From Vibrio hannami (lineage in GTDB: Bacteria; Pseudomonadota; Gammaproteobacteria; Enterobacterales; Vibrionaceae), in NCBI RefSeq assembly GCF_029589055.1, contig NZ_JARQZP010000001.1, positions 62,001 to 126,000 on the forward strand: a DNA stretch of 64,000 bases, read 5' to 3'. A program made the position numbers and the translations under genes. Shown in pieces: positions 3,052-56,177 of this stretch; positions within the stretch are counted from its first letter, which is position 1, and each line of letters starts with the position of its first letter. The notes under the pieces are model-generated. The model was not told the origin of the DNA and did not search any database. It worked only from the letters and a program-made list of their open reading frames with translations.

Positions 3052-3234
3052 TGCTTCTCTCCTTGTGAATTCAGCAATTTTCCATTTGATGGGCTGACAG
3101 GAACAACTGATGTTGAGTTTGTAGGGTACAGTTGCCTCTGTTAATACAATGTTATAACTCTCGGTGAATACGGATCTTTTCTCAATTAGACTTTAGATTA
3201 ATATTGTCGACAATCTGCCTTATGAGGCTGAAAA

Positions 3235-3870
3235 TTATCGTAAATATGCAGAAGTAAGAGCGGGTAAGTCGCCATACCTAAGCCGAACATAGACTAAAGC
3301 TGCTGATATGGCATCCTGAAGGGCGTCGTGTTTGTTGTCTTGAGGCGGGAGATCAAGGTGCTTACAGATGGCGTCCAGGCTCAGGTCAAAATAGGCATTT
3401 GGTAGATGCTTTTCTAGCATTTCATGATAAATATGGCTCACCTCGATCAACTCATTTGGCATAGGGAAACCAAAGTGTTTCTGGCAGGCGATATCAAGGA
3501 TCGTCTTATCGTAGTGGATATGGTAGCCAACCATAGGTCGGTTCCCGGTGAACTCAAGTAGCGCTTTGATCGCTTCTTTTTCGCTCATGCCATCGACTAA
3601 ATCCTGATGGCGAATACGATGAATGCGCACCGAGCCTGAGTCCAAAGATTGTGGTGCCCGTAAGCGTACATAAAACGGTTCGCTAGTTATGATTCTATTG
3701 TCGATGATCTTGGTTGCGGCGATGGTGACTAACTCCGCCCGGTGGGGATCCAGGCTAGTGGTCTCACAATCCAGCGATACATACTCTTTATGTTTGCAAG
3801 GCGTAAAGAGGTGTCGATGAGGAGAATCCTTCAATCGGTAGTACCAGAGTTTACGCTTAAGCCAGTTCAT
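3235..3870 (-). CDS. 3'-5' exonuclease, DnaQ-like (DEDDh)
   Basis: A 211-aa protein with the three exonuclease motifs of the DnaQ/RNase T fold: Exo I SLDCETTSLDP (Asp and Glu), Exo II VGYHIHYDKTIL, and Exo III with HDALQDA, which makes it the DEDDh type. It should hydrolyse single-stranded DNA or RNA 3' ends in the cytoplasm; the substrate is not evident. Its start overlaps the stop of the upstream CBS/nucleotidyltransferase gene (TAATG), so the two are translationally coupled. This two-gene unit is commonly found near acs in vibrios and related bacteria, but its role with acetate metabolism is not known to me. Confidence 0.85.
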   Translation of the reverse strand: MNWLKRKLWYYRLKDSPHRHLFTPCKHKEYVSLDCETTSLDPHRAELVTIAATKIIDNRIITSEPFYVRLRAPQSLDSGSVRIHRIRHQDLVDGMSEKEAIKALLEFTGNRPMVGYHIHYDKTILDIACQKHFGFPMPNELIEVSHIYHEMLEKHLPNAYFDLSLDAICKHLDLPPQDNKHDALQDAISAALVYVRLRYGDLPALTSAYLR

Positions 3871-5696
3871 TATTCTCTAATCTGATAGTGATAGCCAAGC
3901 CACTGTTTGAACTTCTTAACAACATGCAAGCTGTGGCGAAGAAGATCTCGTTCTGTGCGATCCAGTAGTTTGAGATCAATGCTGTTATGACTGTGCTGCT
4001 GAGAAAGCTGTTGCGCTAGGCGTAATTTGAAAAACTGTTTAAGTGCTTCAGTCAGGTTATCTGCGGTCTCTTTTTCCAGTACCTTTCTTCTCATTAGTGT
4101 TTCAATACGCTCGAAGGTATTGTTCTCCATGATTTGGTACTCAAGGCTAAGTGCCCGAACGCCATGTACGATAGGGAAGATCCCGCCTTGTTTAAGGTCG
4201 ACACCCTCTTTAGAGCTTTTAACATTGCCGAATAAGGTCAGCGGCACCGAGAAGTTTAGGGCTGGGCGGGTAAACTCGGTCAGTATCAGTTCCTGATCGG
4301 CCATTAAGTTACTCAGGTGCTGTTTTATCGGTTCAAGCAGCGCTTTGTTCCCTGCAACGGCATGAGCATCGGCTACGATGGCTAGCTTCATCACTTGTTC
4401 TGGTCGCGCGGCTTCAACCCACTCAGTTATAGTTTGTTTCCATTCAGATTCGCTTTGGACCCACTCAGGATTGTTGACCATTACTTTACCGGGACAAAGC
4501 GGGTATCCCAGTTGCTGAAGAGTATGAGTAAAAATATCCAGAATAGGTCGATGATCCGGCCAGCGAAATCCATCTTTCATAATGATGGCGTTGTCCTGAT
4601 CGGTTTTTAGAATCTGTTCGCCACGTCCCTCAGACCCAAGAACCATCAAGCAGATATCGTCGTGCAGCGCTGGTGGAACGACTAGCTCAAATGCTTTCTC
4701 AATGATCTGTTCGTTGACCGCTGATATCAGCTCCATAATAAAGCGGGTGCGGATACCGTTAGTCAGCAAACTATCGACCAGATTCCGTTGTCGGTTTGCG
4801 GCTAGTGCTAACTCATCTATTGTTGTCGCACGCGCAATACTTAGCGTCAGTACATGAGAATGGGTTGAGAAGGCACTTAGAATTTGGGTCATATCCAACA
4901 TGCCGACCGCTTTATTGCCTTCACATACCATGACCCGTTTCATGCGTTTTTTGGTCATGGTAATCATGGCGTTAAACAGGAAGTCACCATCATCAACATG
5001 AAATACTGGGAAGGTGGCGATATCTCCGACCTTAGTATCCAGTGGATGACCTTCCAGCATAACCGCATGCAGCATGTTGGTTCGTGTCACAATGCCGTAT
5101 GGGTGCTCGTTTGGTTTTTCTTCAAGTCTGCTATCGTCTTCATTTAACTCAATTAACGCAGCATCAATCCCTTTCTCTTTCAAATAACGAGTGACTTCGA
5201 TGAGGGACATATCTGAAGGCAGGGTTACAGCTGGGTGATAGATAGAGTTATCTACCTTGGTTAGTATGAACTCAGCGAGGTTTTGCTGCTGCTGTGCCGC
5301 TTCAATAAGTTCTTGTCTCTTCGCGAGGTTGTTGTCGAAATAGGCGGCGAACTCGCCATTCTCATTATATAACTCGAGAAAGACTGACCTGGGCATCATG
5401 TAAGAGAGTGTATCTTCCAGCGCTACATATCGGTGTTTTACGGTGTTTTCAAACTGAGAGCGGACATCGAATATGTCGTCATTAGCATAGTGAGCAAATA
5501 TCTCCGACTCGTCAGCTGAACGTTCCTCAACAGCCCCTTTGATAAGAATGTATAAGTGCTGACTCTCTTCACCAGACTTAAGAATAACATCCTTGGCACG
5601 ATAATATGCGACATCCAGAGATGAACGTAATCGCTGCTGCTGACCTTCAGACAGGCGATTAAAAGGCGGGGATTGCATGTTGAACTTATCAGGCAT
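3870..5696 (-). CDS. Cyclic-nucleotide-binding / CBS / DUF294 nucleotidyltransferase-like protein
   Basis: A 608-aa multidomain protein. Residues about 22-125 resemble a cyclic-nucleotide-binding fold, about 155-275 are a CBS pair, about 340-440 are the DUF294 nucleotidyltransferase domain with the signature GSEGRGEQ (353-360) followed by DQD (366-368) as likely metal ligands, and 460-600 is the DUF294 C-terminal domain. Such proteins are predicted signal-sensing nucleotidyltransferases, similar in layout to GlnD-like enzymes; the target is unknown. It is coupled to the exonuclease gene. No signal peptide or membrane segment is seen, so it is cytosolic. Function beyond the domains is inference. 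Confidence 0.85.
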   Translation of the reverse strand: MPDKFNMQSPPFNRLSEGQQQRLRSSLDVAYYRAKDVILKSGEESQHLYILIKGAVEERSADESEIFAHYANDDIFDVRSQFENTVKHRYVALEDTLSYMMPRSVFLELYNENGEFAAYFDNNLAKRQELIEAAQQQQNLAEFILTKVDNSIYHPAVTLPSDMSLIEVTRYLKEKGIDAALIELNEDDSRLEEKPNEHPYGIVTRTNMLHAVMLEGHPLDTKVGDIATFPVFHVDDGDFLFNAMITMTKKRMKRVMVCEGNKAVGMLDMTQILSAFSTHSHVLTLSIARATTIDELALAANRQRNLVDSLLTNGIRTRFIMELISAVNEQIIEKAFELVVPPALHDDICLMVLGSEGRGEQILKTDQDNAIIMKDGFRWPDHRPILDIFTHTLQQLGYPLCPGKVMVNNPEWVQSESEWKQTITEWVEAARPEQVMKLAIVADAHAVAGNKALLEPIKQHLSNLMADQELILTEFTRPALNFSVPLTLFGNVKSSKEGVDLKQGGIFPIVHGVRALSLEYQIMENNTFERIETLMRRKVLEKETADNLTEALKQFFKLRLAQQLSQQHSHNSIDLKLLDRTERDLLRHSLHVVKKFKQWLGYHYQIRE

Positions 5697-48794: not shown

Positions 48795-51431
48795 TCAAAA
48801 CAGAGATTCACTCTCTCCGCTGCCACCACCAGAGAATAGATCCAGCTCATCAGCTGCATTATCCTCAGCGTATGTAGTCGGTTCCGTGCCTGATACAAAG
48901 TATTCAAACATAGCGTTTGAGCCTGATTGCTTGGTTAGAAGGCCACTATCTCTATCGATGCGAACTCTTACGATATCTGATGGAATTGACTTTCTCTGGG
49001 TTGGTACGCCGTCCAAAGCGACTCTCATAAAGTCTACCCAGGCAGGTTGAGCGGTTTTTGCACCTGCTTCGCCACCTGGATTTTGCTGATCTTTAGACAG
49101 GTTAGCATTTCTGCTGGTTCGTCCCAGTTTACGTTCATGACTATCGAAGCCTACCCATGAAGTAGCAACAATGCCTGGCCCATAACCGTTGTACCATGCA
49201 TCCTTAGATTCGTTAGTTGTACCTGTTTTACCACCAATATCGCGGCGTTTAAGAGTCTGAGCACGCCAGCCAGTACCATTCCAGCCAGTACCTTCACGCC
49301 AGTTACCTCCACCCCATACGTTGCTGTACATCATCTCTCGGACAAGGAATGCTGTCTGTTCTGAGATGACTTGAGTCGCATAATGGATAGCATTTTCGTT
49401 CTGCACAGCAGTTTCAATTACATCGTCTTCATTTGCTGCGATAGTGTCCTCGAGGTTTTGTTCAACAACAGACTCCGCCATGTTGTCGTCAGTGTCTTTC
49501 TGAACCTTGTTGGTCAGATACGATTTCATTGAATCATCACAGTTCTGTCGGCAGATAATCGCTGGATTCGCCTTAAATTCAGTATCGCCATATGGTGTCT
49601 CTACATGATCGATATAGTATGGTTCAACGTAAAAACCACCGTTAGCAAATACTGAGTAGCCCTGAGCCAGTTTTACTGGAGTCAGGCTGCCAGCACCTAA
49701 AGCAATGGTTTCCGAGCGTGGAAGCTCATTTAGATCAAAGCCAAAGCGGGTTAGGTATTCACGAGTATTGTCTAGACCAACCTGACGCAACACTCTTACT
49801 GCCATTACGTTCTTCGAGGTCGCTAGTCCGATACGTAGGCGGGTAGGGCCGATATAAGTTGGTGGAGAGTTCTTTGGTCTCCACGCCGTACCCATGCTTG
49901 AATCCCATTGATTGATAGGTGCATCGTTAACCAAAGATGCCAGAGTCATACCACTATCAACTGCAGCAGAATAGATAAATGGTTTGATACCTGAGCCCAC
50001 CTGCCGAACAGACTGAGTTGCGCGGTTAAACTTGCTGTGAACAAAGTTAAAGCCACCAACCAGTGACAATACAGCGCCATCTTCAGGATTCATTGCAACA
50101 AATGCAGTATTTGCGTTAGGAACCTGACTTAGCTTCCATGTATAAGTGAATTGAGGCTCATCTTCTAATGCACCTTCAATAGGTGTTTTAGTTAATGGAC
50201 GCACCCAAATCTGTTGGCCTTCTGCAATGATATCTGATGCTGTTTTAGGAGCTGGTCCTTGTTTGTCATCAGTAATGAACTTACGAGCCCACTTCATTCC
50301 GTCCCATTCAACCTGAGCCTCACCCTGATTTTTAATGTATACGGTTGCTGATTGATCTTGCACAGAAGTTACGATAGCCGGAGAAAGTTCACCGTAGCTC
50401 GGTTGCTTTCTCAGGTGCTTTTTCATTTCATCAACAGTCAGGGCTGGCTTACCAGGCGTCCATAGCTCTTTTTCTTCGCCCCGGTAACCGTGTCTCTCAT
50501 CGTAGTTTAGAAGGTTAGATACTGCGGCAGTTGTCGCGGCATTTTGCAACTTGGAATCCACTGTTGTGTAGATCTTCATACCCGATGTATAAGCATCTTC
50601 CCCGTAGCGTTCTACCATCCACGAGCGGGCAATTTCTGCAATGTACGGCGCTCTTAGTTCGATCTCCGCACCATGGTAACGGCCATCAAGAGGCTCCGAT
50701 TTTGCTTGTTCGAACTCTTCCTGCGTAATGTACTTCTCGGCCAACATTCGGCCCAGAACAACGTTGCGTCGGGATGTTGCTCTATCAATGGAGTAAATCG
50801 GGTTCATGGTTGAAGGTGCTTTTGGCATACCTGCCAGTGTGGCCACTTCACTCAGAGTTAGCTGGTTTAGCTCTTTGCCAAAGTATACCTGTGCGGCAGC
50901 ACCAAAACCGTAAGAGCGATAACCAAGGAAAATCTTGTTGATATAGAGTTCTAGAATCTCTTCTTTAGAAAGCAGTTGCTCTATGTGTACAGCGATAAAA
51001 ATCTCTTTGATTTTTCGCATAATTTTCTTCTCATTAGACAAGAAGAAGTTTCGTGCCAACTGCTGTGTAATGGTACTTGCCCCTTGTTTTGCTGAACCGG
51101 AAACTGCAACGACAACTGCAGCTCGGACGATGCCGATTGGGTCGATACCAGGGTGGCTGTAGAAACGGCTATCTTCCGTTGCTATTAGGGCTTCTATTAG
51201 TTCTTTCGGGATCTCGTCATAGGTCACTGGTACGCGACGCTTTTCACCAAATTGCGATATAAGCTTACCGTCGCGACTATATACCTGCATAGGAGTCTGA
51301 AGCTGGACATCTTTTAATGTTGCAACATCTGGCAACTCGGGTTTGACGTAATAATAAAATCCAACAATTGTTCCCACTCCAAGAACAATGCAAACCACTG
51401 AAAAAACAAACAAGTACTTTATGAACTTCAC
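48795..51431 (-). CDS. mrcA: Penicillin-binding protein 1A
   Basis: An 878-aa bifunctional wall synthase. One membrane helix (about 5-27), the glycosyltransferase domain (about 55-230) with EDSRFYSHPGIDP and GASTITQQLARNFFLS, an OB-like insert, then the transpeptidase with the SxxK Ser in GSGIKPFIYS, and the KTG motif GGKTGTTNESKD. It makes and cross-links peptidoglycan. It is divergent from pilM, a conserved arrangement in gammaproteobacteria. Confidence 0.95.
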   Translation of the reverse strand: MKFIKYLFVFSVVCIVLGVGTIVGFYYYVKPELPDVATLKDVQLQTPMQVYSRDGKLISQFGEKRRVPVTYDEIPKELIEALIATEDSRFYSHPGIDPIGIVRAAVVVAVSGSAKQGASTITQQLARNFFLSNEKKIMRKIKEIFIAVHIEQLLSKEEILELYINKIFLGYRSYGFGAAAQVYFGKELNQLTLSEVATLAGMPKAPSTMNPIYSIDRATSRRNVVLGRMLAEKYITQEEFEQAKSEPLDGRYHGAEIELRAPYIAEIARSWMVERYGEDAYTSGMKIYTTVDSKLQNAATTAAVSNLLNYDERHGYRGEEKELWTPGKPALTVDEMKKHLRKQPSYGELSPAIVTSVQDQSATVYIKNQGEAQVEWDGMKWARKFITDDKQGPAPKTASDIIAEGQQIWVRPLTKTPIEGALEDEPQFTYTWKLSQVPNANTAFVAMNPEDGAVLSLVGGFNFVHSKFNRATQSVRQVGSGIKPFIYSAAVDSGMTLASLVNDAPINQWDSSMGTAWRPKNSPPTYIGPTRLRIGLATSKNVMAVRVLRQVGLDNTREYLTRFGFDLNELPRSETIALGAGSLTPVKLAQGYSVFANGGFYVEPYYIDHVETPYGDTEFKANPAIICRQNCDDSMKSYLTNKVQKDTDDNMAESVVEQNLEDTIAANEDDVIETAVQNENAIHYATQVISEQTAFLVREMMYSNVWGGGNWREGTGWNGTGWRAQTLKRRDIGGKTGTTNESKDAWYNGYGPGIVATSWVGFDSHERKLGRTSRNANLSKDQQNPGGEAGAKTAQPAWVDFMRVALDGVPTQRKSIPSDIVRVRIDRDSGLLTKQSGSNAMFEYFVSGTEPTTYAEDNAADELDLFSGGGSGESESLF

Positions 51432-51544: not shown

Positions 51545-52495
51545 ATGTTTCGGTCAGAGGTTACTGGTATCGATATTAGTCCCCAAAGCATTAAAGTGGT
51601 TTCAGTGAAGTCCGCTGCCAGTGGATATGTAATTACCAGAGCCAGGAGCTTTGCAAGCGGTGCTGTGAATGACGATCACTCTATGGATTATCATCTGCTG
51701 GTAAAGGGACTCGGCGAGCTAAAGAAGGAGTTGCCCTTATTTAGCCGAAAAGTCGCTATTTCGGTTCCCGATTCAGCGGTTGTCTGCCGTTCTCTCCAAA
51801 TCGACAGCGGCATACAGGAAGTTGAGCGTGAGTTTGCGATTTACGAAGCTTTTTCTAGTGTTTCTCCAGTTGCACATCAACAACTGAGAATAGATTTTGT
51901 CGAAAAAACTCAATCGGTACAGGAGGATAAAGTCGGATATCAGGTCTATGCAGCTAAAAAAGAGGTGGTTGATGAGCGGGTTAATGCGGTCAAGCGCGCA
52001 AAATTAACGCCAGTACTTGTCGATACCCAGTCTCATGGCTTGTTAAAAGTATGGGAAGTCATATCGAAAAGGTTGAATCAGGCAAATTGGTTATTGCTCT
52101 ATATTGGCCCTAATCAAACGACTATCTGCTCGGGAGCTGTTTCTGATTCGGTATTTTGTCAGTCGATACAAAAGGGGCTAGGTTGTAAGGTTACTGATTT
52201 CAAAATGCAGCAAAAGGCTTGTGATGAGTTGGCTGATAGTGTGGCTTTGCAAATCCAGATTTACGCATCTGCAACGGAGCCAGTGGAAGGTGTATGGGTT
52301 ACAGGAGATACAGAGTCTCTTGAACCATTTCGAGTGACATTGGAGCGAATAACATCACTCCAATGTCAGCTACTTAACCCACTGGAGTTTATACCAGGCT
52401 GTAATTCAGTCACGGGTAAATATGATTCAGGATATGCATATAGCCTTGCGGTGGGGATCGCCATCAAAGGGCTCTGCTGGGTGGAGTCAGCCTGA
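51545..52495 (+). CDS. pilM: Type IV pilus inner-membrane assembly protein PilM
   Basis: A 316-aa actin-like protein (FtsA fold), starting FRSEVTGIDISPQSIKVVSV. The phosphate-binding segment near the start and the AISVPDSAVVCRS region fit PilM, but overall it is divergent and a little short. PilM binds the INLLPWRE peptide of PilN on the cytosolic face. It is the first gene of the pil operon, divergent from mrcA, and its stop overlaps the start of pilN. Confidence 0.85.
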   Translation: MFRSEVTGIDISPQSIKVVSVKSAASGYVITRARSFASGAVNDDHSMDYHLLVKGLGELKKELPLFSRKVAISVPDSAVVCRSLQIDSGIQEVEREFAIYEAFSSVSPVAHQQLRIDFVEKTQSVQEDKVGYQVYAAKKEVVDERVNAVKRAKLTPVLVDTQSHGLLKVWEVISKRLNQANWLLLYIGPNQTTICSGAVSDSVFCQSIQKGLGCKVTDFKMQQKACDELADSVALQIQIYASATEPVEGVWVTGDTESLEPFRVTLERITSLQCQLLNPLEFIPGCNSVTGKYDSGYAYSLAVGIAIKGLCWVESA

Positions 52496-53049
52496 TGCCA
52501 GATATCAATCTACTTCCATGGCGAGAGAAAAAGCGAGCGCAGTATCGGCGTGTTTTCTGGCTGCTGCTTGGACTGGTATTGCTCATTACCGTTGCTGTTC
52601 ACCTTCTTATTTTAAGCACTATCGAAAAGCAGATACTGACTGAAGCGACAGTTGAGCAAGAGCTTACCCTTGCATTAAATAAAATGCTTCAGAATGAAAA
52701 GCAGCTAGAGTTACTGACCGATACTATTTCAGAACTGGATAAAAGGATTATTCTGCTCGATAGGATGAGTCAAAACCAGAGTATGCCAGTTAGCCAATTA
52801 CATCTCTTTGTTGAGCATGTACCAAAAACTCTGCTTTTCACTAGGGTGTTGATTGCAGAAGGCACTATAGAGATTTCAGGTGTTGCCCAACAGACTGAGT
52901 CGATAACCATGCTGTCGCAGCGGCTGGAGTCCGAATCGAAAGTCACAGATATAAATGTACATGCGGTCTCAAAAATAAAAGAGGGAGAGCATCAAGGCTT
53001 TCACGAATTTTTATTGAAGTTCCCTCTTAACGAGGAGGCGAGCCATTGA
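52495..53049 (+). CDS. pilN: Type IV pilus inner-membrane protein PilN
   Basis: A 184-aa bitopic protein. The cytosolic PilM-binding motif INLLPWREKKR is at residues 4-14, one membrane helix at about 20-42, and a periplasmic coiled coil plus ferredoxin-like domain follow. Start and stop overlap its neighbours (A of ATG with pilM stop; TGA with the TTG start of the next gene), so translation is coupled through the operon. Confidence 0.88.
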   Translation: MPDINLLPWREKKRAQYRRVFWLLLGLVLLITVAVHLLILSTIEKQILTEATVEQELTLALNKMLQNEKQLELLTDTISELDKRIILLDRMSQNQSMPVSQLHLFVEHVPKTLLFTRVLIAEGTIEISGVAQQTESITMLSQRLESESKVTDINVHAVSKIKEGEHQGFHEFLLKFPLNEEASH

Positions 53050-54068
53050 GAGGAATGCCTGAATTAGATTTGAATGATATTGCGGAGTGGCCGCGAAAGT
53101 TTCAAATGTTGGGGCTGATGCTACTGTTTTTGATTATTCAGTTGCTGCTTTACTGGTTAGTAATATTGCCAAAGCAGGAACAAAGGAGTGAGCGTTTAAA
53201 ACTGATAGCTCAGAAGCAGAATATCCTAGTCATGAAATCTGGAAGTGCTTCTCAGAAAATGGACTTGGAAGAGACGTTGAGAGATAAACACCGACGTTTG
53301 GTTAACATGAGCCACTCTTCCTCTGGCGGGAAATCACAAGTAGATATTCTTTCCGTTGTTAACCGATTTGCTTCTGCTAATCGTCTTACAGTGCATCAAA
53401 TAGATAAAAAACAACCGTTAGGGAACAATGTTTACGTTCAACATCTTTTCGATATCCAGATTTCAGGGAGGTTTGAGGATCTTGGGCGATTTTTTGGCTT
53501 TATCGCCTATGTGAAACCCTACATTGGCTTCGAGCGTATTGAGTTTCTTAAGGATAGTGCGGACAGCTCAGAGATTAGCGTCAGAATAAGTGCAGTGACC
53601 TATTCTCTGGATGATAACTGGCAGAGGATGGCGTTAGAAGCTATATCTGGTTTAAACCAAACGCCAGAACCTGAGCAAGGATTGTCGCGATATAACACAT
53701 CTTTTAACCCTGTATCCCCAAGAGATATTTTTGAGTTTGCAGCCCTGGAGTCAAACTCAGGAATTGCTCAACAAAAATGTACAAAAAGCAGCGTGCCTGG
53801 AGATCTAACTGAGATTGAGAAATTCAAGCTAGGCGAGTTATCGCTGAAAGGCTTCCTTCGCGCAGATAATAAAAAAGCAGCATTAATCCAGACTCCTGAT
53901 GGAAAAGTTGTTTCTGTAAAGGAAGGAGACTCCCTCGGAGATGAAGGTGGATATGTGTTAAGTATCAATCAGCATGATCTACTGATTTATGAAACAGCTG
54001 GTGGATGTGAATCTCATAAGCCGGTCTACTGGCCAAAAAGGAGTATTAATATTGAAGTTAGACCATAG
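53046..54068 (+). CDS. PilO-PilP fusion protein
   Basis: One 340-aa frame covers what are normally two genes. Residues 21-42 form a membrane helix and 43-190 the PilO coiled coil and ferredoxin-like domain. After a linker (191-225), residues 226-340 match the PilP homology domain: RDIFEF, then LGELSLKGFLRADNKKAALI and TPDGKVVSVKEGD. PilP's own lipoprotein signal is missing, so the domain would reach the periplasm via the PilO helix. Cys 245 and 321 may pair. The TTG at 53046 overlaps the pilN stop and has AGGAGG 7 nt upstream; an ATG at 53055 is possible. No shift is needed to read it. Confidence 0.82.
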   Translation: MRGMPELDLNDIAEWPRKFQMLGLMLLFLIIQLLLYWLVILPKQEQRSERLKLIAQKQNILVMKSGSASQKMDLEETLRDKHRRLVNMSHSSSGGKSQVDILSVVNRFASANRLTVHQIDKKQPLGNNVYVQHLFDIQISGRFEDLGRFFGFIAYVKPYIGFERIEFLKDSADSSEISVRISAVTYSLDDNWQRMALEAISGLNQTPEPEQGLSRYNTSFNPVSPRDIFEFAALESNSGIAQQKCTKSSVPGDLTEIEKFKLGELSLKGFLRADNKKAALIQTPDGKVVSVKEGDSLGDEGGYVLSINQHDLLIYETAGGCESHKPVYWPKRSINIEVRP

Positions 54069-55380
54069 TTTTGTGATTACTTTACTCTTGCTCTCATTTG
54101 CTGTTAGTGGGGCGGAGAATGAAGGTTCCGTTAATCGGTCAGAAGAAAACCGGATTTCCCTTAATGCTCAAGATATGCCAGTAAGAAACCTGCTCCAGGC
54201 CGTCGCCGATTTTAAAGGGCTGGATCTGGTGGTTTCCGATTCGGTTGAAGGAAATATCTCTTTAAATTTTGAAAATGTTCCATGGGAACAGGCTCTTGAA
54301 GTCATTCTGCATGCTAAAGGTTTGGACAAACATATTACGGGCAACATTATACTCATTGCTCCTAAAGAGGATTTTGGAAAAAGGACACAATACGAAGCGG
54401 AGCAAACCAAGTTAACGCAGCAGTTTGAGCTCTTGCATTCACGGGTGATAAGAGTTCATTTTGCAAATGCTGTTGAACTGGCTGAAACCTTATCATCAGG
54501 CAGTAACGTAATGTCGTCCAGAGGTGCTCTTTTTGTCGATAGCCGAACCAATTCAATCATTGTCAGAGATATGCAAAGCAATCTGGAAGAGGTTAGTAAG
54601 ATGATTGCGCAGTTAGATATCCCAATTGATCAGGTTCAGATCGAAGCACGACTCGTTACCATCAGCGAAGGCGATTTAGAAGAGCTCGGTGTTAGGTGGG
54701 GCGTATCTGGAAGCCACGGAGATACCGCCTTTGGTGGCTCTTTAGAAGGGATTCACTTACAGGGCGATGAATTGTCACTGGATGATATGCTCAACGTCAA
54801 TCTGGGAGCGTCAAGCCCCAATGCCTCAGGCATTGCTTTCTCAATAGGTACGCTAGAAGGCATGCTTTTGGATCTTGAACTATCTGCACTGCAGTCGGAG
54901 TCCAGAGCCGAAATAATATCCAGTCCCAGGCTGATTACTGCCAACAAGAAAACGGCTTATATAGAGCAGGGTACAGAAATCCCTTACCTGGAAGCGGCGT
55001 CTAGCGGTGCCACATCGGTCTCATTTAAAAAAGCGGTATTAAGTTTAGAAGTCACTCCACAAATTACGCCCAACCACCAAATTGTTCTTGATCTGAAGGT
55101 GACACAAAATAGCCCAGGTGAAACCGTGCGGACTGGTTTTGGAGAGTCGGTATCTATCGATACTCAAAGAATTGGCACTCAGGTACTGGTTAATAACGGC
55201 GAAACCATCGTTTTGGGAGGTATTTATCAGTACGACCTGCGCACATCTGTAGATAAGGTCCCTTTGCTGGGAGATTTACCATTATTAGGAAATTTATTTC
55301 GTCGAAGCTATGAAGTCAGGCGCAAAAAAGAGTTGATGATCTTTGTTACTCCTAAGGTTATTTCCGAACAAGTTATGTAA
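54052..55380 (+). CDS. pilQ: Type IV pilus secretin PilQ, short form without AMIN region
   Basis: Started at TTG 54052, which has AAGGAG 8 nt upstream, the protein has 442 aa with a signal peptide (KLDHSFVITLLLLSFAVSGA). It overlaps the PilOP stop by 17 nt. The STN/N0 domain begins at once (ISLNAQDMPVRNLLQAVADF), then N1 (VIRVHFANAVELAETLSS) and the secretin core with VQIEARLVTISEGDLEELGV and VPLLGDLPLLGNLFR. Most vibrio PilQ proteins are larger, with an N-terminal AMIN domain; this one resembles the compact Haemophilus ComE. It forms the outer-membrane pore for pili and DNA uptake. Confidence 0.85.
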   Translation: MKLDHSFVITLLLLSFAVSGAENEGSVNRSEENRISLNAQDMPVRNLLQAVADFKGLDLVVSDSVEGNISLNFENVPWEQALEVILHAKGLDKHITGNIILIAPKEDFGKRTQYEAEQTKLTQQFELLHSRVIRVHFANAVELAETLSSGSNVMSSRGALFVDSRTNSIIVRDMQSNLEEVSKMIAQLDIPIDQVQIEARLVTISEGDLEELGVRWGVSGSHGDTAFGGSLEGIHLQGDELSLDDMLNVNLGASSPNASGIAFSIGTLEGMLLDLELSALQSESRAEIISSPRLITANKKTAYIEQGTEIPYLEAASSGATSVSFKKAVLSLEVTPQITPNHQIVLDLKVTQNSPGETVRTGFGESVSIDTQRIGTQVLVNNGETIVLGGIYQYDLRTSVDKVPLLGDLPLLGNLFRRSYEVRRKKELMIFVTPKVISEQVM

Positions 55381-55658
55381 AAAAGTTCGGTCTTTGCCTT
55401 GAGCCTATAACCTACTAATTATCAATGTAATTTCCATGAATTGTCTGCGGTATAGTGGCTAGTAGCTCAATTATGTTGAGGTGAATTAGTATCACCAGAC
55501 AAAATATAGTTGCATTACAGCCATCAGATCTAGATAATTTCGGGTCTTATCACGAAATAATTGTGAGGAATCGGTGCTGCAAGCCGATCAGTGAAGTATA
55601 AAAATCGATCTGATTTGTAGCAATTTCATTGAATTAACGCTGTAAATTAATGCTGAAC

Positions 55659-56177
55659 ATGGCTGAGAAACGTAACATATTTTTAGTTGGCCCAATGGGG
55701 GCTGGCAAAAGCACAATCGGTAGACACCTTGCCCAACAACTTCATATGGAGTTCCTGGATTCTGATACTGTAATCGAAGAGCGCACTGGCGCAGATATCG
55801 CATGGGTATTTGATGTTGAAGGTGAAGAAGGTTTCCGTAAGCGCGAAGAAACAGTAATCAATGACCTGACTGAAAAGCAAGGCATTGTATTAGCTACTGG
55901 TGGTGGCTCGGTTAAGAGTAAAGATAGCCGCAATCGCCTTTCTGCAAGGGGTATTGTTGTTTACCTTGAAACCACGATTGAAAAGCAACTTGCGCGTACC
56001 AACCGCGACAAGAAGCGCCCACTACTTCAGACTGATAACCCTCGTGAAGTTCTTGAAGGGTTAGCTGGTGAAAGAAACTCGCTGTACGAAGAAGTTGCTG
56101 ATTACACAGTGCGTACAGACGATCAAAGTGCAAAAGTAGTAGCCAACCAGATCATAAAAATGATAGAAGAACGTTAA
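55659..56177 (+). CDS. aroK: Shikimate kinase I
   Basis: A 172-aa protein, [20 protein letters not shown], with the P-loop GPMGAGKST, shikimate-binding [11 protein letters not shown] and GGGSV. The ATG at 55659 matches E. coli AroK; the upstream ATG at 55650 is not conserved. It phosphorylates shikimate. It follows the pil operon after a 278-bp gap and precedes aroB by 24 bp, the classic aroKB pair. Confidence 0.95.

Follow-up and report, generated by a model that had tools for sequence, protein, structure and literature searches.

The window, meaning the whole 64,000-nucleotide stretch of DNA that was analysed, carries a real PilO–PilP fusion in one open reading frame (positions 53046–54068, forward strand). 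As the best explanation overall, we hold with good confidence that the fused gene supplies a working alignment-complex subunit of this genome's type IVa pilus. The account builds on several observations, namely the frame itself, both encoded domains, the linker that joins them, the sole PilP match in the genome, the pilin and ATPase genes of the same genome, and the repeated occurrence of such fusions.

A single frame encodes PilO and PilP

As originally predicted, the frame joins PilO to PilP over 340 codons without an internal stop. Its TTG start codon overlaps the stop of pilN, and AGGAGG lies 7 bases 5′ of this codon. Both halves exceed their curated Pfam cut-offs: PilO (PF04350) is matched by residues 97–188 (E = 4.7e-9; 37.0 bits against 22) and PilP (PF04351) by residues 219–317 (E = 8.4e-14; 52.2 bits against 25.6). 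Against profiles built from relatives in which the two genes are separate, the N-terminal half scores 99.6% as PilO and the C-terminal half 98.4% as PilP, and 20 shuffled versions of the C-terminal half reach at most 2.5% with the PilP profile.

An AlphaFold2 model of the fused protein alone, made with the help of Photobacterium rows for PilO and PilP, is of moderate confidence (mean pLDDT 72; pTM 0.36). Its long helix at residues 17–66 contains the shorter helix predicted earlier at residues 21–42 (53106–53171), a hydrophobic stretch by eye that would form the single membrane span. The periplasmic core of PilO (residues 94–191; 53325–53618) superimposes on the ferredoxin-like core of the solved PilO structure 2rjz with a Z score of 15.1 (1.8 Å over 92 residues). 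Similarly, the PilP homology (HR) domain (residues 247–333; 53784–54044) matches the solved PilP structure 2y4y (Z 12.1; 2.1 Å over 80 residues); its match to the HR domain of GspC (3oss; Z 8.7) is weaker. The linker (residues 192–246; 53619–53783) is predicted to be disordered, with low model confidence at residues 205–250. Cys245 (53778–53780) and Cys321 (54006–54008) align with a Cys pair that 51 of the 55 split PilP rows share (genome G104 counted twice), and thus the disulfide proposed between them is plausible.

The PilP lipobox and flexible N terminus were both predicted to be gone. Indeed, neither a signal peptide nor a lipobox can be found by eye at the junction, and at 53561–53780 no frame offers a start codon behind an SD-like word, so the PilP half lacks the signal peptide and lipobox of a free PilP lipoprotein. 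The N terminus is lost in part. A linker of roughly 55 residues persists, in which RDIF (residues 226–229; 53721–53732) sits where PilP has its RxPF motif and stands 16 residues before Cys245. RxPF has the same spacing to the first Cys in the split PilP of locus L105, and the spacing varies among other rows; R, P, F and the first Cys of split PilP are each at least 90% conserved across 28 rows. The second genome with this fusion, G073, retains RVPF. Because these motifs are kept in the fusions, the losses comprise the signal peptide, lipobox and residues N-terminal of RxPF. In other systems the N-terminal segment of PilP docks on PilN/PilO and its HR domain on the N0 domain of PilQ (PMC5805733, PMC5285504), and in Pseudomonas aeruginosa this docking occurs through an unstructured segment (PMC5805733). 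By analogy, the lost part of PilP would be largely this docking segment, which a covalent bond to PilO may have made needless.

In the mechanism that we propose, the PilO half would span the inner membrane and pair with PilN, and the flexible linker would let the PilP domain reach and grip N0 of the short secretin PilQ. The peptide bond to PilO would replace the lipid anchor of PilP together with its unstructured N-terminal docking segment, with the PilO helix standing in for both. The fusion would also fix PilO:PilP at 1:1, a part of the original prediction that stands.

The gene lies in an operon of the order pilM, pilN, pilO–pilP fusion, pilQ, which is flanked by ponA/mrcA on the opposite strand (48795–51431) and by aroK–aroB downstream (aroK, 55650–56177, forward strand). 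On the forward strand, pilM (51545–52495; PF11104, E = 6e-30; TIGR01175 over its cut-off) is followed by pilN (52495–53049; PF05137, E = 4e-7), which sits directly upstream of the fusion gene. The pilQ gene (54052–55380, forward strand) starts with TTG at 54052, with AGGAG upstream, and encodes 442 aa. Both neighbours are conserved in the synteny described in PMC7545093, where the type IVa competence operon pilMNOPQ of V. cholerae occupies the same mrcA/ponA–aroK–aroB place and has a secretin of the same family. Nearly all of the 197 secretins described there reside in complete pilMNOPQ clusters, with few exceptions, whereas the cluster in the window has the fused gene.

The PilQ protein of the window matches TIGR02515 well over the cut-off (E = 3e-143; 477.8 bits against 284) and keeps the N0 (STN, E = 1e-10), Secretin_N and secretin domains in Pfam, N0 being part of the dominant secretin architecture (PMC7545093). 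No Pfam AMIN match was found in this protein, and it covers the PilQ profile from position 122 only, the profile used throughout having seven rows of mixed length. AMIN does not define the PilQ secretin family, because the domain is absent in 27 of 197 published proteobacterial secretins (PMC7545093).

Elsewhere in this draft genome (10 contigs) no PilP match besides the fused gene was found, as predicted, and the fused protein is thus the sole PilP for its own pilus, unless a diverged copy was missed. A pilin match on contig C7 ends 459 bases before a match to an ATPase that size and place suggest is of PilB type, and two T2SSE frames in tandem on contig C6 (348 and 381 aa) are, by the same signs, pilT/pilU-like. 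Three more T2SSE ATPase frames (431–448 aa) on contigs C3 and C7 of G000 might, as a guess from their size, belong to Tad-type pili.

Fusions and secretin architecture in the genus

We sought PilQ in 227 genomes of the genus and tabulated the open frames, obtaining a match in 223. These comprise 159 long PilQ frames (at least 530 aa, the AMIN size class, with AMIN model coverage checked in the loci read), 33 short frames with N0, 25 shorter frames without N0 that match from the Secretin_N domain onward only, and 6 broken frames. Four genomes have no PilQ match; G182 and G223 have pilM–pilP near contig ends, and the remaining two measure about 1 Mb each. The operons of all 33 and all 25 genomes in the two shorter classes were read.

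Among the 33 genomes with a short, N0-bearing PilQ, 28 have separate pilO and pilP genes and five have fusions, so the predicted architecture does recur in relatives of the window. Three fusions are firm (the window, G073 and G021) and two are probable (G049 and G214). In G073 a single frame at the corresponding locus encodes this fusion as well, and the C-terminal half of the G021 fusion scores 92% as PilP. The C-terminal halves of G049 and G214 score 12% and 18%, with 20 shuffles of each giving at most 1.0% and 0.7%, respectively. The N-terminal half of G214 scores only 20% as PilO, Pfam gave no match for the G049 protein, and alignment A4 found no PilP at either locus. We consider G049 and G214 to be probable fusions given their place, length and Cys pair.

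Among the genomes of the genus, PilO–PilP fusions turned up only in this N0-bearing class, whose PilQ lacks the AMIN region that binds peptidoglycan. None was seen among the 159 long-PilQ genomes (setting aside G117, at a contig end), in which PilO and PilP are matched at two separate places or are separate genes where the operon was read, nor in the six genomes with broken PilQ. Fisher's test of fusion against long PilQ gives p = 1e-4, a value that ignores relatedness and is not usable as a probability. Long frames in G059, G097 and G091 proved to be separate genes and were rejected. A 414-aa PilN–PilO frame in G010 (L122:2567–3811, reverse strand) was left uncounted, as its pilQ is broken in two and a sequence error is possible.

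A class-wide search covered 321 genomes, 228 of which were matched, and found no PilO–PilP fusion among those listed matches, 16 besides the window's, whose open frame has at least 287 aa. Among named-genome contigs, the fused protein as query found no relative, and with PilQ as query the hits were 18 Photobacterium loci and a single Krumholzibacteriia MAG. All 18 Photobacterium loci have separate pilO and pilP and a long PilQ.

On a tree of PonA and AroK, the five fusions require four changes, and a single clade of the three firm and two probable cases is rejected (p-AU 0.006). The PilQ tree likewise requires four changes, two of which are forced by well-supported branches; G049, G214 and G021 form long branches on it and their placement is unsure. 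The window and G073 are paired on both trees (support 98). This pairing, along with the fusion at the same locus, suggests that their fusion is probably older than the split of the two genomes. The pairing also speaks for descent with fast change over replacement of the operon. Compared with L032, window positions 51545–55380 form an unusually fast-changing operon within a slow neighbourhood.

This rapid divergence is the argument for an operon in decay, in which the fusion would be a step towards loss. PilM, PilN and the fused protein are 32%, 24% and 25% identical between the window and G073, against 56% for PilQ and 97% for AroK (PonA, 78%), and the fused gene itself (24.7% identity) has a dN of 0.95 with dS near saturation. 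However, none of the four frames is interrupted in either genome, third codon positions are the most variable in each of the four genes, and a pilin match is present in the window's genome and in the four other fused genomes; decay is thus unlikely, and relaxed constraint in part of the fused gene is conceivable given the fast divergence from G073. Cleavage of a polyprotein, or a restart of translation, could instead release free PilO and free PilP, and the low-confidence residues 205–250 are perhaps accessible to a protease. We regard this as quite improbable, for a restart would have no SD-like start available at 53561–53780, a free PilP half would by eye have no signal peptide to export it from the cytoplasm, and the single frame is kept in G073 despite the low identity. 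The draft state of the assembly might also suggest that a sequencing or assembly error erased a stop and a start between pilO and pilP. Such an error would have had to produce the fusion again at the corresponding locus of G073 and once more in G021, and the junction has no remaining signal peptide or SD-preceded start, which makes this explanation exceedingly improbable. A working fused subunit remains the reading that we prefer.

Of the 26 split PilP proteins encoded next to an AMIN-bearing PilQ, 18 of which come from Photobacterium, 23 contain a lipobox-like match; of the three that do not, L033 has a late-starting frame. Next to an AMIN-less PilQ, 15 of 28 contain such a match, and overall 16 of the 54 proteins read have none. 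The description of PilP as a lipoprotein fits most of the first group and is not borne out in 3 of 26 and 13 of 28. The latter 13, for example L087, L089, L096, L098 and L099, may be non-lipoproteins. Because the lipobox is rarer beside AMIN-less PilQ, loss of the lipid anchor does not seem to require fusion, and joining PilP to PilO seems to be another means of holding it at the inner membrane. In P. aeruginosa, the AMIN domains of PilQ are required for placing the alignment complex, and AMIN-deleted PilQ forms oligomers described as nonfunctional (PMC5285504), which counts against the reading that we prefer. The sequence of AMIN loss and fusion can only be inferred, and in G021 the two cannot be ordered because this genome is placed beside the AMIN-bearing G059 and the broken G039.

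Relatives without pilP

In the 25 genomes with the shortest secretins (L107–L121, L123, L124 and L126–L133; about 360–416 aa without N0), pilQ directly follows pilO. The first start of the pilQ frame lies between 173 bases before and 4 bases after the pilO stop, and there is thus no room for pilP in the operon. Pfam found Secretin_N and secretin domains, and no STN/N0, in the secretins of L107, L108, L112, L118 and L127.

Judged by eye, these secretins begin with a signal peptide, which a short linker follows, and in 14 of the 25 the linker contains the motif x[DENS]PF, compared with 1 of 62 other PilQ N termini (G104 included twice; 18 from Photobacterium); the Fisher p of 1e-8 for this difference ignores relatedness and is not usable as a probability. 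Among split PilP proteins (G104 again twice), the motif occurs in 25 of 29 beside an AMIN-less PilQ and in 8 of 26 beside an AMIN-bearing PilQ, where many read RVPF. It occurs in none of the three fused PilP halves and is thus an incomplete mark of PilP. It was not seen in the linker of the other 11 pilP-less secretins.

In the close pair L096, with a separate pilP, and L108, with none, the L096 PilP reads ...EPHSFEQLRDPF... and the L108 secretin reads ...SPHTFEQLRDPF..., after which the two secretins share sequence into Secretin_N. By comparison with L096, the start of the L108 secretin is recognizably that of PilP. The simplest reading is that a single deletion ran from inside pilP through the end of N0 in pilQ.

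No PilP match over the cut-off was found in the 25 genomes, and none fell under E = 0.01 with a genus alignment, whose sensitivity is limited in that it found PilP in three of seven control genomes with diverged or fused PilP (G021, G141 and G195) and missed G016, G102, G049 and G214. Weak matches (E 0.012–0.73) occur in 11 of the 25, nine of them to model positions 1–51 at most, in frames of 524–554 aa. Five close pairs of the pilP-less kind have a dN/dS of about 0.07–0.33 in pilM, pilN, pilO and pilQ, and a pilin match is present in each of the 25 genomes, which suggests that these pilus systems are maintained. The pilP-less state requires five changes on both the PonA–AroK and the PilQ tree.

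Proposed peptide bonds in place of contacts

More interesting than the fusion itself is the pattern that these operons form. On balance we lean towards the view that the PilN–PilO–PilP–PilQ chain has been hard-wired repeatedly in the genus, with different joints made into peptide bonds in different lineages. The PilO–PilP joint would be covalent in the window, G073, G021 and probably G049 and G214, the last of which would have a PilM–PilN joint as well. In up to 25 species the joint would be that between PilP and PilQ, where a deletion would have connected the beginning of pilP, encoding the signal peptide and the RxPF linker, to Secretin_N of pilQ, so that HR of PilP and N0 of the secretin would have been lost in a single step. 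If this is true, the HR:N0 contact, the supposed bridge between the membranes, is dispensable when a covalent bond ties the linker to the secretin.

Natural fusions of this kind serve as experiments on the wiring of the pilus alignment complex. A stable PilO–PilP fusion argues for equal numbers of the two proteins, and the pattern in the genus, in which AMIN is absent and either one joint is fused or HR and N0 are missing, makes it testable which contacts are needed and which merely hold parts together. In type II secretion, GspC is not known to be fused to the PilO-like GspM. GspC does resemble the PilP half in being an inner-membrane protein whose HR domain binds the secretin N0 domain (PMC3169554).

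The original statement that pilO and pilP are separate genes in described systems does not hold, since a P. putida PilO–PilP fusion (UniProt Q88CU9) was named in 2011 in PMC3169554, which made the same 1:1 argument from a single gene product. That protein comes from another genus and is likened to the window protein by description only, and the accessible text links it to no secretin domains and gives no functional test. This kind of fusion is therefore known, if rare, and what is new is the genus-wide setting of apparently hard-wired joints. Listings and passages of open-access papers contained no report that we could find of a PilO–PilP fusion in Vibrionaceae or of combined loss of PilP and N0.

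The closest parallel to the 25 relatives is found in cyanobacterial pilMNOQ clusters, which also lack pilP in the operon. There, a PilP homologue is encoded elsewhere in the genome (PMC12288463), whereas our search, with its limited sensitivity, detected none in the 25. Other departures from the standard chain of contacts are described in PMC3724824, in which the PilP–PilQ contact of Myxococcus xanthus is reported to be unlike the N0 contact of other systems, a point against our preferred reading, and PilW of Thermus thermophilus interacts with the same proteins as PilP.

A further observation concerns G214 (L125:1729–3213 and 3134–4300), in which PilM and PilN also appear to be fused in a 494-aa frame, the profiles scoring 97% and 94%. 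With this frame beside the probable PilO–PilP fusion, the operon consists of three genes.
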